This document shows, piece after piece, positions 1-5,170 of a stretch of 5,170 bases of DNA. Both the position numbers and the translations under genes were made by a program. Under the pieces are notes generated by a model. The model had not been told where the DNA came from and ran no database searches. It saw nothing but the letters and a program-made list of their open reading frames with translations. Numbering within the stretch: position 1 is the first letter of the stretch; each line of letters opens with the position of its first letter. Source of the DNA: an archaeon (GTDB lineage: Archaea > Iainarchaeota > Iainarchaeia > CSSED10-239); NCBI GenBank assembly GCA_029563035.1, contig JAKQTP010000001.1, forward strand, positions 1 through 5,170, in the 5' to 3' direction.

Positions 1-2150
1 GTTTCAGAAAAAGATTTAGGAAAAGCCCAGTGATATTCTACTTTTTTTAAATCAACTCCTCGTTTAATTAATTCATACTTTAACAAGAGCAGTAATATCC
101 TGAGATATTCTTTTGATGCTTGTTGTTTTATTAATTGAGGTGCCCATTTTAAATTGGTTTGTTGAACATAAGTTTTTTTAATTGTCCTTCCATCTAAATC
201 ATAATTGAAAAATCCAACATCATCTTTAGAGAAAGCAATAGAGGTATTTAATAATGCTTTATAAGAATCAGTATCACCTTCAATTAATATCATAGAAGGA
301 AGAGGCATATCAACAGATTGATTATTATGAATCTCACTTAGTGAATTAGGTAAGAAATATTGTTTTAAATAATTATAAATCAAATTAGGAATTTGTTCTC
401 TTCCTAATTCTGGTTCAGAAAATCTTATGAGGGTGATAAAATCATTATCATTCAGATTTTTACCTGAAAATTCAGAACTATATTTCAGCACTTCTGGCTC
501 GGAATTATCAATTGTAATAGCAATATTAGTATGGGAAGTTCCAAAATCAATACCAACTTTTGCAGATTTTTCCGGATTCATTACTGTGGTCAGGAATTTA
601 TGATTGAGAATTAATAAACCCTTACCATTGGAAGCAATATCAGAAATCACAATATAAGTAGGAAGTTTTTCTAATTGGAATATTTCTATTTTATCAGCTT
701 TGCGAGATCTCTCATAATTTATATCTTTAAAATCCTGGTCTTTAAACTCCAGAGGCACCATTTCTTCCTGATTTATACCATCTTTGTATCTTTTCCCATA
801 AACAAAAGCATAATAGCTATCTTTCCAGTTTTCAGGATGTAGTGGAGGCCAAATCATTATATGTGGAAGAGGTGTATCAATATCCCGGTCATCATAATTT
901 ATAATACGATTTTCTTTGCTATTAGTTAAGTCTTGAAAATAATCCCGTTTAATTTCTATATAATCTCCATTCTGGATAGGAATTTTTAATGTAACTCTAA
1001 CTGTTTTATCACTTATTTCTTGGATGCTTAACATATCCTGTACATCATCATAGTTAAAATAGGAGAAAAATGTATCAGTTAGAGGAAGTGCATATTTCAT
1101 ATCGCTGCTATCTTTGTAAGAACCGAGTATAAGTCTATTATTATTGAGCCGATATTTATACTTAACCAGAACCGGTTGGAAAAAATCTTCTTGGGGTAAT
1201 ATCCAGGGATATTTTATGTTTTCACCTGGCAGAAAATCTCTGTTGCTATCTTTTAATTCTTCATATTTGAAATCTTGTAGATAGTTATAACCATTGTAAT
1301 ACTCACTACCATATAAACTTTTGGAAGTGTCAATAACCAGAGGGGGTATTTCATTTTCCTTAAGATGTTTCAACAGATATGAACTGGATATTCTTTTTAT
1401 ATTAATTTTTTCCAGCAGGTTTGACAGAGAGGATTCCAAGAGAAAATCACAAGTAAGTAAAATGTCCTCCTTTAACGATTCTTTTAAACTTTCTGCACAT
1501 ATACCTTCATCATCAGATAAAGCTTTAACTAAATCAGGATAGTTTCCATCTTTTCGTAGTTTAGTGAGAAAGTTAGAATTTATCCATCTTTGAAAATCCT
1601 GTGGACGTTCTTTAAGAGGGACAGGTTTTTCTCTAAAATATCTTGGGAAAACTATATTACCTTCTTTATGCTTTAAATTCATAGGTGTGAATAAAAGAGA
1701 AAAGGGACTGGTTCCTGCTAAAACGAATTTATCATTTGAATCTCTGCTGGCAATTAATAAACCAATGCTGACAACATCATTTATCTTTAGTTCGTCCGGA
1801 CTGAGGTCATACAGTATTTTTAGAAACTTATTTTTCTCGTCATTCTTTATTTTAATCTCTTTATACTCAATATTAATATTCATCAATTCATAATAGAAGA
1901 TTATCTCCAGAACATCCAGGATATTGGACATAGCTTCTTTGTGCATAAGATGATTAGTAGATTTAATAGCTTCTTTAAAAAGTAACATTCTTGCCCAAGG
2001 TGAAGGAATAGAAGTAACATTAATTTTGGAATCCGGTGAAACTTCCATTTCATTAACAAAAGTAGTAAATTCAGTTGGAGATAATTCTTTCCATTGACCA
2101 GGTGTGGTCTGAGGTAAAGATTGTTGTTTTGGAAGCAAGTAACGTGCCAT
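1..2150 (-). CDS. Large protein with unknown N-terminal region and C-terminal Hsp70/actin-like ATPase domain (3' end outside window)
   Basis: The minus frame is open without a stop from ATG at 2150 to the left edge, giving 716 visible residues; the C-terminus is missing. Residues 533-542 read GIDFGTSHTN, the phosphate-1 loop of the Hsp70/actin ATPase fold (DnaK has a similar GIDLGTTNS), with D535 as the likely metal/phosphate contact. At 707-715 the sequence HWAFPKSFS sits where Hsp70 proteins have their VPAxF strand. The domain therefore begins near residue 528 and is cut by the window. Residues 1-520 match no family I recognise. They contain tryptophan/proline-rich islands that look conserved in style: IPSPWAR (48-54), LAGTSPFSLLFTP (144-156) and IMIWPP (431-436) followed by W442. 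I see no signal peptide or membrane helix, so a cytoplasmic location is inferred. The start is supported by AAGGAAGG upstream and a three-base gap after the tubulin-like gene, implying translational coupling. The product is probably a nucleotide-dependent switch or chaperone-like partner of the tubulin-like protein. ATPase fold call fairly firm; role unknown. Confidence 0.85.
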   Translation of the reverse strand, partial: MARYLLPKQQSLPQTTPGQWKELSPTEFTTFVNEMEVSPDSKINVTSIPSPWARMLLFKEAIKSTNHLMHKEAMSNILDVLEIIFYYELMNINIEYKEIKIKNDEKNKFLKILYDLSPDELKINDVVSIGLLIASRDSNDKFVLAGTSPFSLLFTPMNLKHKEGNIVFPRYFREKPVPLKERPQDFQRWINSNFLTKLRKDGNYPDLVKALSDDEGICAESLKESLKEDILLTCDFLLESSLSNLLEKINIKRISSSYLLKHLKENEIPPLVIDTSKSLYGSEYYNGYNYLQDFKYEELKDSNRDFLPGENIKYPWILPQEDFFQPVLVKYKYRLNNNRLILGSYKDSSDMKYALPLTDTFFSYFNYDDVQDMLSIQEISDKTVRVTLKIPIQNGDYIEIKRDYFQDLTNSKENRIINYDDRDIDTPLPHIMIWPPLHPENWKDSYYAFVYGKRYKDGINQEEMVPLEFKDQDFKDINYERSRKADKIEIFQLEKLPTYIVISDIASNGKGLLILNHKFLTTVMNPEKSAKVGIDFGTSHTNIAITIDNSEPEVLKYSSEFSGKNLNDNDFITLIRFSEPELGREQIPNLIYNYLKQYFLPNSLSEIHNNQSVDMPLPSMILIEGDTDSYKALLNTSIAFSKDDVGFFNYDLDGRTIKKTYVQQTNLKWAPQLIKQQASKEYLRILLLLLKYELIKRGVDLKKVEYHWAFPKSFSE

Positions 2151-2153
2151 TTT

Positions 2154-3620
2154 TTACCTTCCTTTAGTTATTTTTGCCAAGGACATTGCTTCTACCATAT
2201 CACCTAATAAGTTATTTTGATTGGTTTTCTTATCATAAAGTTTGGTATCCAGATGGCTTATATGATATCCTTTATATTTATCAGGATTATTAGTTAGAAG
2301 ATTATCAAGTTTGAGTTCATAATCCATTATATTTAATTTTGCATAATTATTATGATTTTGATAAATCCATTCTCGGAAGGAATCCATTAATTCTTTAAGA
2401 GAAGAAAGTTCAGTTTTTTTATCAATTATATCTCTTGCTCTAACTTTTTCATTGTCAATCTTAAGGTCTCTTAACCAAGCTATTTTATCTAAAAGTCTAA
2501 CATTGTTTTTATCAATAAGTTCAAATAATTCATTTATATGATGATAGAGTAGAGCAAACTTTTCAAATGGTTTTCCTTTATCTTTATGAGGAATATCTTC
2601 ATCAACTACATCGGTAGTATCATCATTATTTTTATCAGGATTTTTCACCTGTATTACATAGAATGGTTTGAAGTTACCGCTTCCTTTATTGAAGAAATCT
2701 ATAGCAGCATAAGCTGCCATAAGTTCCAGCATATGAGCATCATTTTTTTGCTCAGTGCTTCCTATAGCATAATTTTCGTACTGTTTACAGTGTTCAAAGT
2801 CATCACCCAGAAAATAATTAGAGTCAATCTGAGAATAATTATTTTTATAAAATTCACAAGCAGTTTTAGCATTAATCATAAAACTTTTTGAATTTGGCAT
2901 TATCTTTTCTTTTTTGAGGCTTTCTTGATATTTTTGCAGGTTTTCAGGGTCTTTAAGCTTAAAATAGGGAAGCATTAAAACACCACCAACCTTAGTAGTT
3001 GGAGAGGCATTTTTGATTAATTTACTGATAACTGGATATCCTGAAGCTCCAGTACCTCCAAATAACGAGGCAAAAATAAAAACTCGAGAAGCAGTATCTT
3101 CTTCCAATCTTCCTCTTAATTCTGTCCAGAAAGCTTGATTTTGAATATCGGTCATTAAGATAGAACCAATAGAAGGGATACCTCTGTATCCAGCACTCAT
3201 ATCCATATTCAATTCTTCTTTACTGAATAAAAGGTCAGCCAGGAATTTATAATCTGTCCCCTGAAGTTTCGTTTCATATTCAATAAAATGGGAAAGTTTA
3301 TTTTGAGCAGGGTCTAAACCAGAGTTTGGATTGTATAAATTAGGAATTTTAACTGTTGTATTAGGTGAATTTTCTTTGTCGCTGTATATAATCTCTGTAT
3401 TGAATAAATAATCTTTGGATGGTCTGGGTAAATGTTCTCTAATCAGTTTATACTTTTGAATTAATTTAATGGTTCTGGTGATATTCCCATTACTCTGGTC
3501 AGGATCAACAAATATAGGAAATAAAGGCTGGTCTAAATGAATTCCCATAGCACATAAATAAATAAGCGATTCCAGGCATCTTGCACCTGTTCCCCCGACA
3601 GAAAATACATAGTAAGGCAC
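2154..3620 (-). CDS. Tubulin/FtsZ-superfamily GTPase-like protein ('tubulin-like' family)
   Basis: This 488-residue protein shows the nucleotide-binding pattern of the tubulin/FtsZ superfamily. A glycine loop SVGGTGAR lies at residues 7-14 right after the first strand. FVDPDQSNGN (37-46) follows the second strand where FtsZ has its T2/T3 contacts. FGGTGASG (187-194) corresponds to the GGGTGSG tubulin signature (T4 loop). The stretch N293-D294 to E299 followed by the helix LMAAYAAIDFF (300-310) is a plausible T7/H8 region carrying the residues that trigger GTP hydrolysis across a polymer interface, though this assignment is tentative. It is longer than FtsZ (usually about 350-400 residues). 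After an acidic, probably disordered segment (328-350) it ends in a charged, mostly helical region, and I see no FtsZ-style C-terminal tail. It is not a division FtsZ; it resembles the 'tubulin-like' (Tubulin_2/FtsZ-like) group. The GTG start is chosen because AGGAGG stands seven bases upstream and the glycine loop would be too close to any later start. Polymerisation is inferred only. Confidence 0.87.
   Translation of the reverse strand: MPYYVFSVGGTGARCLESLIYLCAMGIHLDQPLFPIFVDPDQSNGNITRTIKLIQKYKLIREHLPRPSKDYLFNTEIIYSDKENSPNTTVKIPNLYNPNSGLDPAQNKLSHFIEYETKLQGTDYKFLADLLFSKEELNMDMSAGYRGIPSIGSILMTDIQNQAFWTELRGRLEEDTASRVFIFASLFGGTGASGYPVISKLIKNASPTTKVGGVLMLPYFKLKDPENLQKYQESLKKEKIMPNSKSFMINAKTACEFYKNNYSQIDSNYFLGDDFEHCKQYENYAIGSTEQKNDAHMLELMAAYAAIDFFNKGSGNFKPFYVIQVKNPDKNNDDTTDVVDEDIPHKDKGKPFEKFALLYHHINELFELIDKNNVRLLDKIAWLRDLKIDNEKVRARDIIDKKTELSSLKELMDSFREWIYQNHNNYAKLNIMDYELKLDNLLTNNPDKYKGYHISHLDTKLYDKKTNQNNLLGDMVEAMSLAKITKGR
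2157..2164 (-). promoter_or_regulatory. Ribosome binding site of the Hsp70/actin-like gene, inside the tubulin-like gene
   Basis: AAGGAAGG forms part of the last three sense codons of the tubulin-like gene and ends six bases before the ATG at 2150. Only three bases separate the TAA stop from the start, so the two nucleotide-binding proteins are likely made by coupled translation. Confidence 0.7.
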
Positions 3621-3627
3621 TGTTCTT

Positions 3628-3633
3628 CCTCCT
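3628..3633 (-). promoter_or_regulatory. Strong ribosome binding site (AGGAGG) of the tubulin-like gene
   Basis: AGGAGG lies seven bases before the GTG at 3620 and overlaps the TAG stop of the membrane protein gene. It is a perfect Shine-Dalgarno core and the strongest in the window. It fixes GTG as the start codon and could compensate for that weaker codon. Confidence 0.8.
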
Positions 3634-4027
3634 ATTTAGCTTTTAGTATATGTTCATGAATTCTGCAAAAATATTTTTTTGCTCTAAGAAAAAAACTTAC
3701 CAGGTAAAACAGTAAAAAGTCACACAATACCATAACAAGCATAAAATTGAGGATATAGAGAAACCTGTAACTATCCGTTACCATCTCACTATCTATCTTA
3801 ATCGCAGTATATATGATATAAATTAGGTTAATAACCATAGAGAATAAAAAGGCCATCCAGAATCTTTGGCTTTCTTTTTCTCTACGGTAACGCAAAGCAG
3901 CATAGATAGCTATAAAAATTATATTAACCATCAACCCAATAAAAACGCTTTGGTTCATTTCATTATGCCAATTTTCAATGTAAATTTTGGGTCTGAAAAT
4001 CCAAAAAAATGAGATATTAGGTAACAT
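3632..4027 (-). CDS. Small three-helix membrane protein, unknown function
   Basis: This 131-residue protein is very hydrophobic and contains three likely membrane helices at about residues 27-46, 56-77 and 89-113. The loop RYRREKESQR (46-55) and the tail from R115 onward are strongly basic, while the loop at 78-88 is acidic to neutral. By the positive-inside rule the N-terminus lies outside and the C-terminus in the cytoplasm. I see no cleavable signal peptide, no catalytic motif and no family I recognise. The ATG directly abuts the TAA of the vWA gene (TAAATG), with GAGG six bases upstream, so its translation is coupled to that gene. A second Met at residue 24 has no Shine-Dalgarno sequence. 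As the only clear membrane protein in the visible operon, between a vWA protein and a tubulin-like protein, it is a good candidate for a membrane anchor or receptor of the complex; this is inference from context. That it is a real gene is well supported by spacing and composition. Confidence 0.82.
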   Translation of the reverse strand: MLPNISFFWIFRPKIYIENWHNEMNQSVFIGLMVNIIFIAIYAALRYRREKESQRFWMAFLFSMVINLIYIIYTAIKIDSEMVTDSYRFLYILNFMLVMVLCDFLLFYLVSFFLRAKKYFCRIHEHILKAK

Positions 4028-5170
4028 TTATTTCCTCTCTATTTGTAGATAATAACGAGTCGTAGTTAAAAATTTATAGTCTTCAAAGTTATCCAGAATG
4101 AATTGCATCCAGTTAGCCAGATGATAGGTTTTAGTCTGGAATTCAGGCTTTGAATCATCATCCGTGCTCCATTCTTTTATCCAGGAGGGTAAGGTTTTAC
4201 GAAAAGATAAGAGGATACGATAGGTGCCTGGATTATCTTCTTCAAAAGGAATTTTAAAAGTTATTTTATCTGTTCCTGCGAGTTTATTTGCTTTAATATT
4301 TCCTCTTTTGTCCTGCAGTTCAACGAAATTAGGGTTCTTTTTCGCTTGATAAGCAATTGCATAATCTATGGTAGTACCGAATCTATCTTCATAACCCTTT
4401 AAATTAAATTTTAGATATTGAAAATGACCTTTATCTAATGTAAAATATGCTACTGGTAACTTTTCATCATTGCCAATATGATTAAGCTCTTCTGGAACAT
4501 TCTTCCCTTCTTCATCTTCTGTATATTTTAGATGATTTGGTAGAATGACTCCAAAATCAAAACAATTCTCAAAAAGGTCTCTAATTTTCTTCTGGACAAA
4601 ATCCGCATATTTACGATTTCCGAAGGCAAGGCAATATATAGGACGTTTCCCTCCTGGTTCAATATCAATATATTTTCTGGCATATTCAGAATAATAGGAC
4701 CCTTCAAAAGACACTAGTTTCCCCATCAAAGCGAAGAAACCATTACCTTCCAGATATGAATTCAATTCTTTAGCAAATATGACATAATCCTGTTGTGAAT
4801 GTTGAGTGGATTGCACACCATCGGTAAGAATTAAATTAACGGAATTTTTGTCCTCTCTAATCAGGTTAAATGGTTTGGTAAGGTCAGTTCTTGGTTCTTT
4901 ATAAAAATCCCGTCGGGATAATTTATATAGATTGGCTCTTAAGTCACCCTCCATCTTGAGCGAGCCCTGACCAAAGCTATAGAAATTGATTTTAGCGTCC
5001 TGAGGAATCTTTGCTATAATGGTATTAAGAAGATTGAGATATTCACTATTTTCACCTGTAAAACCATACATACTTGCACTGGCATCAACTATAATATTGA
5101 AACTTTTAGGATTAGCAGGTTTCTCGGAAGGGGGAATGCCAAAAGGTTTTTCCAATTCTTCCAGAGTACG
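4028..5170 (-). CDS. vWA-domain protein with complete MIDAS motif (5' end probably outside window)
   Basis: The frame is open to the right edge, giving 380 visible residues; numbering here counts from the TTG codon at 5155. A hydrophobic strand leads into VDASASM (23-29), the DxSxS element of the metal-ion-dependent adhesion site (D24, S26, S28). The second element is T90 in PRTDL, and the third is D112 in LILTDG (108-113). All metal ligands are therefore present, so this is a competent Mg2+/Mn2+-binding vWA domain of roughly residues 15-200. Residues 230-375 look beta-rich with aromatic residues and may form a separate sandwich domain. I find no membrane helix or signal peptide in the visible part, suggesting a cytoplasmic protein. 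vWA domains generally mediate metal-dependent protein contacts, so an adaptor role in the complex encoded by the following genes is likely. TTG at 5155 is a doubtful start: GGAAGA lies only about two bases before it and the frame stays open upstream. The true start is probably beyond the window. Confidence 0.87.
   Translation of the reverse strand, partial: RTLEELEKPFGIPPSEKPANPKSFNIIVDASASMYGFTGENSEYLNLLNTIIAKIPQDAKINFYSFGQGSLKMEGDLRANLYKLSRRDFYKEPRTDLTKPFNLIREDKNSVNLILTDGVQSTQHSQQDYVIFAKELNSYLEGNGFFALMGKLVSFEGSYYSEYARKYIDIEPGGKRPIYCLAFGNRKYADFVQKKIRDLFENCFDFGVILPNHLKYTEDEEGKNVPEELNHIGNDEKLPVAYFTLDKGHFQYLKFNLKGYEDRFGTTIDYAIAYQAKKNPNFVELQDKRGNIKANKLAGTDKITFKIPFEEDNPGTYRILLSFRKTLPSWIKEWSTDDDSKPEFQTKTYHLANWMQFILDNFEDYKFLTTTRYYLQIERK
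4033..4038 (-). promoter_or_regulatory. Ribosome binding site of the membrane protein gene, inside the vWA gene
   Basis: The minus strand reads AGAGGA, ending six or fewer bases before the ATG at 4027, within the last codons of the vWA gene. Stop and start codons touch (TAAATG), so terminating ribosomes can reinitiate. This site decides the first ATG over the internal Met at residue 24, which has no such sequence. Confidence 0.65.

Follow-up and report, generated by a model that had tools for sequence, protein, structure and literature searches.

What could a tubulin-fold protein and an Hsp70/actin-fold protein be doing side by side in one operon? Tubulin-fold and actin/Hsp70-fold nucleoside triphosphatases are the two great polymer-forming families, and a gene for each lies in the DNA analyzed here, positions 1 to 5,170 of contig JAKQTP010000001.1 (GenBank assembly GCA_029563035.1, assigned to the archaeal lineage Iainarchaeota). 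We call this whole stretch of 5170 bases the window. Four minus-strand open reading frames (ORFs) fill almost all of it, with intergenic gaps of 0, 11, and 3 bases; besides the two proteins already named, they encode a vWA-like protein and a small membrane protein (Table 1). A preliminary description of the window had reported this layout and the four signatures, and both are confirmed. It had also proposed that the four products form a membrane-attached machine. A membrane machine is indeed likely, but these four genes are only half of the operon: by comparison with related loci, the window appears to be the first half of a horizontally mobile bacterial operon of eight genes and about 10 kb. 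Our preferred explanation, to which we give a probability of roughly 0.4, is that the operon encodes an envelope-spanning, Zorya-like machine whose most likely benefit is defense against phages or other invading DNA.

The preliminary description had suggested extending the contig on both sides, and in the downstream direction two near-identical loci from Cloacimonadota samples serve this purpose. The locus from G056 is 97.1% identical to the window over its full length, and the locus from G011 is 95.8% identical over 5164 bases. The next genes in the operon encode a one-helix coiled-coil protein of 202 to 204 amino acids (aa) and a MotA-like protein of 506 to 514 aa. These are followed by genes for a MotB-like protein of 201 to 208 aa and for a lipoprotein whose staphylococcal-nuclease domain matches PF00565 (E = 2e-17). 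The full content is present in loci L116 and L117 (the latter from G011); in L118, we found the genes from tubulin to nuclease, and the vWA and membrane genes were not called.

The MotA-like and MotB-like proteins form a pair of the ZorAB/MotAB type. First, PADLOC assigned the pair in L117 to ZorA1 (E = 1.5e-9) and ZorB1 (E = 6.9e-27). Second, a profile of 21 MotA-like proteins was compared to the Protein Data Bank (PDB), and its top matches were a chain with a MotA/TolQ/ExbB domain (8vvn, E = 9.6e-8) and ZorA (8qyd, E = 1.4e-7). These alignments span the membrane core, not just the coiled coil, and the sequence of the MotA-like protein shows a long cytoplasmic tail. Third, the MotB-like protein of locus L001 matches OmpA in Pfam (E = 4.9e-8). 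Fourth, key residues are conserved: 49 of 50 MotB-like proteins have Asp17 in the membrane helix, and 51 of 52 MotA-like proteins have Thr117. From what is known of MotAB and ZorAB, we take Asp17 to be the ion-carrying residue and Thr117 to be the channel threonine. By analogy, we infer that ions would flow through the MotA-MotB-like complex.

How widely are these genes kept together? We used the best 80 of 102 listed relatives, which were found with the Hsp70-like alignment (A2) alone in genome_contigs, a collection of one genome per species (84,980 species). (Of 67 matches, 26 were placed in alignment A1 along with the window protein; A2 was built from 24 of 50 matches.) The 80 loci come from genomes titled as several phyla, and in 71 of them the vWA-like, membrane, tubulin-like, and Hsp70-like genes lie on one strand in this order. 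Homologs of the four genes do occur together, then, which is what the preliminary description had wanted checked across genomes. The tubulin profile matched an ORF in 76 of the 80 loci and the vWA-like profile in 75. Among the exceptions, the membrane slot is occupied in L003 and L008 by unclustered ORFs of 167 and 170 aa, L013 has no called membrane gene, L054 has neither a called vWA nor a called membrane gene, L079 has no tubulin, and L069 is a remote match outside the Hsp70-like cluster. L035, L044, and L045 are at contig ends, which account for some of the exceptions only. (In L031 the Hsp70-like gene is split into two ORFs, and in L049 the tubulin gene is, which may reflect decay or sequencing errors.)

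The genes also seem to be inherited together. Among 117 evenly drawn Cloacimonadota genomes, searches for the tubulin-like and for the Hsp70-like gene picked out the same 5, and the other 112 hold neither (Fisher p = 6e-9). The protein distances between loci correlate for all six gene pairs (r = 0.79 to 0.94; none of 300 permutations reached such values), and most strongly for tubulin-like versus Hsp70-like proteins (r = 0.94 over 76 loci). This is as expected for genes that are inherited together, and shared ancestry also contributes. The motor is less constant. At the 66 loci with at least 5 kb of sequence downstream, both motor genes were found in 40, the MotA-like gene alone in 5, and the MotB-like gene alone in 1. 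Because the motor is found in only part of these loci, we consider the window's four genes to be a near-invariant core and the motor to be a frequent partner. A different protein, of family c16, takes the place of the motor genes in L023, L025, L035, L036, L038, and L075. (Its representative has a weak N-terminal match to a zinc ribbon, PF13717, at E = 0.0045, which is under the cut-off; L025, L035, and L038 end soon after the c16 gene.)

Downstream genes for hydrolases vary as well. Of the 60 loci from outside Hymenobacteraceae, 22 encode one or two such enzymes: aspartic proteases, trypsin-like proteases, or nucleases. Most members of the three families show a loose lipobox pattern (9 of 12, 8 of 9, and 7 of 9, respectively). 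The hydrolase slot thus appears, from gene content, to be exchangeable between lineages.

We then examined the individual proteins. Structural matches support both of the nucleotide-binding folds that the preliminary description had named, and no conflict with either fold appeared. The core folds are those of FtsZ and of DnaK and MreB, but the identity is just 11-20% in the structural matches listed. In these matches, the window's tubulin-like protein has the tubulin GTPase fold with its glycine-rich T4 loop, and about 130 residues extend past the matched stretch. The signature GGTGA[SA]G is present in 70 of 78 ORFs of the tubulin family (counting the window's ORF and fragments). We therefore describe it as a tubulin-fold protein and a predicted GTPase. 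The Hsp70-like protein matches DnaK (E = 2.4e-8) and MreB (E = 8e-7). Its full-length relatives have 1092 aa, and as the first phosphate loop is not reached until residue 535, the actin-like core follows a long N-terminal half. Counting the window's cut ORF, the first phosphate loop (D[FILY]GT[ST][HN][TS]) is present in 80 of 81 Hsp70-like ORFs and the second (D[ITV]GGG[ST][ST]D) in 73 of 81. Four full-length members had no match to the Pfam HSP70 family at E ≤ 0.1. This protein has, by these structural matches, an Hsp70/actin fold and is a predicted ATPase.

The vWA-like lipoprotein takes its putative name from motifs. The window's protein has both the DASAS and the TDG residues of a metal ion-dependent adhesion site (MIDAS), and among 23 aligned members, Ser33 of this site is invariant and Ser31 is at least 90% conserved. 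Profile searches of Pfam, NCBIfam, and PDB gave no relevant match. Full-length relatives (413 aa; L116 and L117) have an N-terminal hydrophobic segment and the lipobox LFSC. Because these relatives extend upstream, the TTG start that is offered for the window's gene is an artifact of the window edge. And because they bear a lipoprotein-type signal, we expect the vWA-like protein to be outside the cytoplasm. It may belong to the machine, as the preliminary description had it, but not beside the tubulin. The 131-aa membrane protein has Kyte-Doolittle membrane segments at residues 27-45, 58-76, and 96-114, and it matches Pfam DUF7789 with 32.4 bits (the cut-off is 25); its relative in L117 scores 21.6 bits, which is below the cut-off.

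Table 1. Genes and motifs in the 5170-base window, in order of transcription.
Feature	Positions	Strand	Remarks
vWA-like lipoprotein gene	4028..5170	-	ORF open at window edge; 5' end, signal peptide, and lipobox outside window
MIDAS motif DASAS of the vWA-like protein	5072..5086	-	From translation
Membrane protein gene, 131 aa, three predicted helices	3632..4027	-	ORF
Tubulin-fold protein gene (predicted GTPase), 488 aa	2154..3620	-	ORF; GTG start
Phosphate-binding signature GGTGASG of the tubulin fold	3039..3059	-	From translation
Hsp70/actin-fold protein gene (predicted ATPase)	3..2150	-	3' end beyond window; 716 of about 1092 codons
Phosphate-1 loop GIDFGTSHTN of the Hsp70/actin fold	525..554	-	From translation

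Is the operon mobile? The operons of G056 and G011 share 91.5% DNA identity over 9,932 alignment columns. Elsewhere between the two 20-kb loci, the sole other match is 76 bases long, so the operon sits at unrelated sites. Two housekeeping proteins, which we take to be NrdD and an enolase fragment, are 79% and 77% identical between the two genomes. As the operon's DNA is more similar than these proteins are, we conclude that the operon was transferred recently. Its G+C content, in 1-kb steps, is 0.28-0.34, as compared to mostly 0.36-0.40 in the surroundings (with single bins down to 0.31). In G011, a direct repeat of 194 bp, with 92% identity between the copies, flanks the operon, the two copies being about 11 kb from each other (L117:3403-3594 and L117:14385-14578). 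A search of the G011 genome found no further full-length copy and seven partial matches of 39-84 bases; the repeats are possible candidates for recombination sites. (The contig of L001, from a metagenome-assembled genome named Caldisericia, holds almost only this operon and is 92% identical to the window. Its placement in Caldisericia may reflect misbinning or a transfer between phyla.)

Relatives of the tubulin-like protein are also encoded by four contigs in the viral database IMG/VR. Three of them have the vWA-membrane-tubulin-Hsp70 order, and two of these have both motor genes as well; in the fourth, the tubulin-like and Hsp70-like genes are joined by a weak MotA-like match. Support for phage carriage is best in the near-identical G644 and G645 (L155, L156, L158, and L160), which have the whole cassette and the motor. 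Their terminase gene passes the family cut-off, and the terminase and portal proteins of G644 match those of Bacteroides and Riemerella phages. (Another gene in the flank of a phage contig, at L159:3633-5798, is presumably DUF262-like.) For G643, the support is thinner: it consists of the IMG/VR classification and a single gene, about 2.4 kb away from the cassette, whose product shares 38% identity with proteins of Flavobacterium phages that are annotated as nucleotidyltransferases. In a remote version of the cassette (L157:65-12965), the tubulin is 600 aa and the Hsp70-like protein 1504 aa long; this version is near a DNA methylase with phage matches and near a gene that we take to be recombinase-like. 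Six plasmid records match the window's tubulin, all at under 60% identity. On two of these, from cyanobacteria (L096 and L097), vWA-like, tubulin, and Hsp70-like genes are accompanied by a small ORF at the position of the membrane gene; L096 has its vWA-like gene on the opposite strand. Where annotated, the MotB-like matches on plasmids, among the matches listed, are OmpA-family proteins. As to other neighbors, the G051 copy lies between methylase and specificity genes of a type I restriction system (upstream, L118:123-2733) and genes of the DUF3987 and PrimPol types (downstream, L118:16855-19488).

Among known systems, the closest in its motor is Zorya (types I-III). Both have adjacent genes for a ZorA-type protein (MotA/ExbB core and long tail) and a ZorB-type protein (OmpA-like domain), and in the window's clade there is a nuclease gene within the operon. 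But the nuclease here is a lipoprotein of the staphylococcal-nuclease family, and there are five further genes. We consider the operon to be Zorya-like in its motor but, judging by its gene content, not a member of Zorya. According to passages of a study of Zorya, that system depends on the binding of peptidoglycan, on the tail of ZorA, and on ion flow (PMC11890865).

The conflict systems of Kaur 2020 share other parts with this operon: in the passages that describe them, tubulin, HSP70, and vWA components are present in operons with a predicted role in conflict at the membrane (PMC7159879). Those systems are defined by a DO-GTPase and GAP1, and a MotAB motor is absent from these passages. We recognized neither a TRAFAC DO-GTPase nor GAP1 in Pfam scans of the operon's proteins, although the library may lack these models. 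The preliminary description had called the pairing of tubulin and Hsp70 folds uncommon. One passage of Kaur 2020, which mentions an HSP70 alongside tubulin homologs in GTPase systems, is a precedent for it, and section 29 of the same paper calls the tubulin and HSP70-GrpE themes non-overlapping (PMC7159879). Among the records listed by a literature search of the open-license part of PubMed Central, we found no description of the operon studied here.

How might the machine work? We suggest that the MotA/MotB-like pair, by analogy with MotAB and ZorAB, would be anchored to peptidoglycan and driven by ions. The vWA-like lipoprotein and the MotB-like domain would act as sensors on the outer side and respond to a disturbance of the envelope, such as the entry of phage DNA. 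Next, the motor would turn or strain its cytoplasmic tail, and the tail, together with the coiled-coil protein, would control the assembly of the tubulin-like and Hsp70-like proteins at the disturbed site. Incoming material in the periplasm would be attacked by the lipoprotein nuclease or, in other lineages, by the aspartic or trypsin-like protease. Sensing by the vWA-like and MotB-like proteins, signaling by the tail to the tubulin-like/Hsp70-like pair, and a role for the hydrolases as effectors are proposed less firmly than ion flow is. A bolder and tentative reading is that of an immune or envelope machine of a kind not described before, in which an ion-driven rotary motor of the ZorAB type relays an envelope signal to the tubulin-like/Hsp70-like pair and so switches two cytoskeletal polymers, with exchangeable nucleases or proteases as periplasmic effectors; phages, plasmids, and other transfer would have carried it into several phyla, and it would have become fixed in one bacterial lineage. 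Defense is our first choice because of the kinship of the motor, the nuclease/protease slot, the evidence for transfer, and carriage by phages.

Several observations weigh against this explanation. Neither motor gene was found in 20 of the 66 loci with enough downstream sequence, a further difference from Zorya (some of these misses may be failures of ORF calling). No PADLOC model for ZorC, ZorD, ZorE, ZorF, or ZorG matched among the operon proteins that were scanned. In 55 of 75 vWA-like ORFs, the first Asp of the MIDAS is replaced by Glu (ExSxS), and the lipobox pattern is present in 51 of 75. Phage records in INPHARED gave no match to the window's tubulin. Nor are the operon's flanks enriched in defense genes: at E ≤ 1e-20, we found 24 PADLOC families in the flanks and 29 in controls, although individual cases occur, as in the neighbors of the G051 copy. 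(This test compared 117 of 320 flank ORFs, from outside Hymenobacteraceae, within 6 kb and of at least 180 aa, to 104 of 212 control ORFs that lie elsewhere in 13 genomes, which are a different and smaller set than the genomes of the loci. The counts are of families, not ORFs, and each family listed, 24 of 24 and 25 of 29, was matched by one member.) Of the neighbor types that the preliminary description had named, an OmpA-type domain is present in the MotB-like protein; a dynamin-like protein was not recognized among the operon proteins scanned with Pfam. Finally, in the genus of G004 (titled Hymenobacter), the tubulin gene is present in 101 of 101 genomes, and in the family of G004, in 82 of 100.

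Such near-fixation in Hymenobacteraceae is atypical of a defense system and resembles a resident function there. The alternative, then, is a machine of normal physiology, in which a tubulin/Hsp70-like scaffold positions the motor for cell shape, envelope integrity, or a process at the surface. Besides the distribution in Hymenobacter, which makes it a serious second choice, it is favored by the absence of defense enrichment and by two more findings: the same neighbor, of family c12, lies just upstream in L004, L006, L007, and L013, and none of the 19 Hymenobacteraceae loci (assigned by organism name) has a downstream hydrolase gene, as compared to 22 of the 60 others (Fisher p = 0.0009). But the tubulin gene is rare elsewhere, in the 5 of 117 Cloacimonadota genomes, in 9 of 345 Bacteroidota genomes, and in 1 of 8 genomes in the genus of G011, namely G011 itself. 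(All draws count the genome at their center, which is G002 for Cloacimonadota. With this genome left out, the figures become 4 of 116 for Cloacimonadota, 8 of 344 for Bacteroidota, 0 of 7 for the genus of G011, 100 of 100 for the genus of G004, and 81 of 99 for its family.) The recent transfer of the whole unit and its carriage by phages and plasmids also argue against a resident role. On balance, we think that a general resident role is somewhat unlikely. Under the defense explanation, the operon may have turned into a resident envelope machine in Hymenobacteraceae, where tubulin is near universal and the 19 loci lack the hydrolase.

Some details of these draws are as follows. In Bacteroidota, the Hsp70 profile matched at least 7 of 345 genomes, which is a lower bound as two candidates were scored per genome. 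The Hsp70-like gene adjoins the tubulin gene in 8 of the 9 genomes with tubulin; in G310, an ORF of 1301 aa, of unknown type, is there instead. Within the genus of G004, the best match per genome has 38-100% identity, and some matches are in pieces; two, in G505 and G519, have just 40% and 38% identity. By identity to the L004 protein, the tubulins fall into groups at about 85-100%, 46-59%, and 38-40%, mostly with one match per genome. We regard these groups as ancient lineages, within a fixed gene, that arose by paralogy or replacement.

We also considered membrane remodeling or vesicle formation, in which tubulin-like filaments would bend the inner membrane and the vWA and OmpA-type proteins would link them to the envelope. 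The window's tubulin is a remote relative of Tubulin_2 (PF13809), which we take to be the FtsZl1 family: it scores 18.4 bits (E = 0.0014), under the cut-off of 27, and a cyanobacterial relative from a similar cassette scores 40.8 bits, above it. In the FtsZl1/vWA operons of Makarova and Koonin 2010, as presented in the main text, a divergent tubulin-fold protein likewise stands beside vWA and membrane proteins and sometimes OmpA-domain proteins (PMC2875224). But FtsZl1 proteins have a long coiled coil after the GTPase domain and a length of 1000 aa (PMC2875224); we saw no long coiled coil in the 488-aa protein, and the longest helix in its model has 22 residues. The diverged P-loop GTPase or kinase of those operons was not recognized in Pfam scans of the operon's proteins. 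The operon here adds an Hsp70-like protein and a motor, and Hsp70 does not occur in the main text of the 2010 paper (PMC2875224). So the link that the preliminary description had drawn to this work holds as kinship, not as identity. As described in its main text, the 2010 proposal itself rests on gene context. Membrane remodeling would leave the motor, the nuclease, and carriage by phages unexplained, and with no dynamin-like or P-loop GTPase recognized among the operon proteins scanned with Pfam, it seems improbable.

Both folds also act in DNA segregation, as in the plasmid and phage tubulins TubZ and PhuZ and in the actin-like ParM. Genes for the maintenance or segregation of mobile elements would fit with a cassette that sits on plasmids and close to phage genes. 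But fixation would be unexpected for a replicon function, and the tubulin gene is in every genome drawn from a Hymenobacter genus; the motor, the lipoproteins, and the envelope parts have no known role in segregation. This makes segregation quite improbable. Lastly, compact genomes can give close spacing, but the conserved order across phyla, the joint presence of the tubulin-like and Hsp70-like genes in the same 5 Cloacimonadota genomes, and the correlated distances (to which shared ancestry contributes) argue strongly against chance neighbors with no joint function.

Overall, a tubulin-fold and an Hsp70/actin-fold protein travel together as a near-fixed pair. At 40 of the 66 loci that could be tested, both subunits of a Zorya-like envelope motor are encoded in the same operon, and the pair has been transferred from genome to genome and has reached phages and plasmids. 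Many genomes of the Hymenobacter genus derive from cultured strains, so with the tubulin-like gene in every genome of that genus that was searched, the function is directly testable. If the motor does control the pair, a rotary motor would be coupled to a cytoskeletal polymer in bacteria, possibly as a new route of defense against phages.

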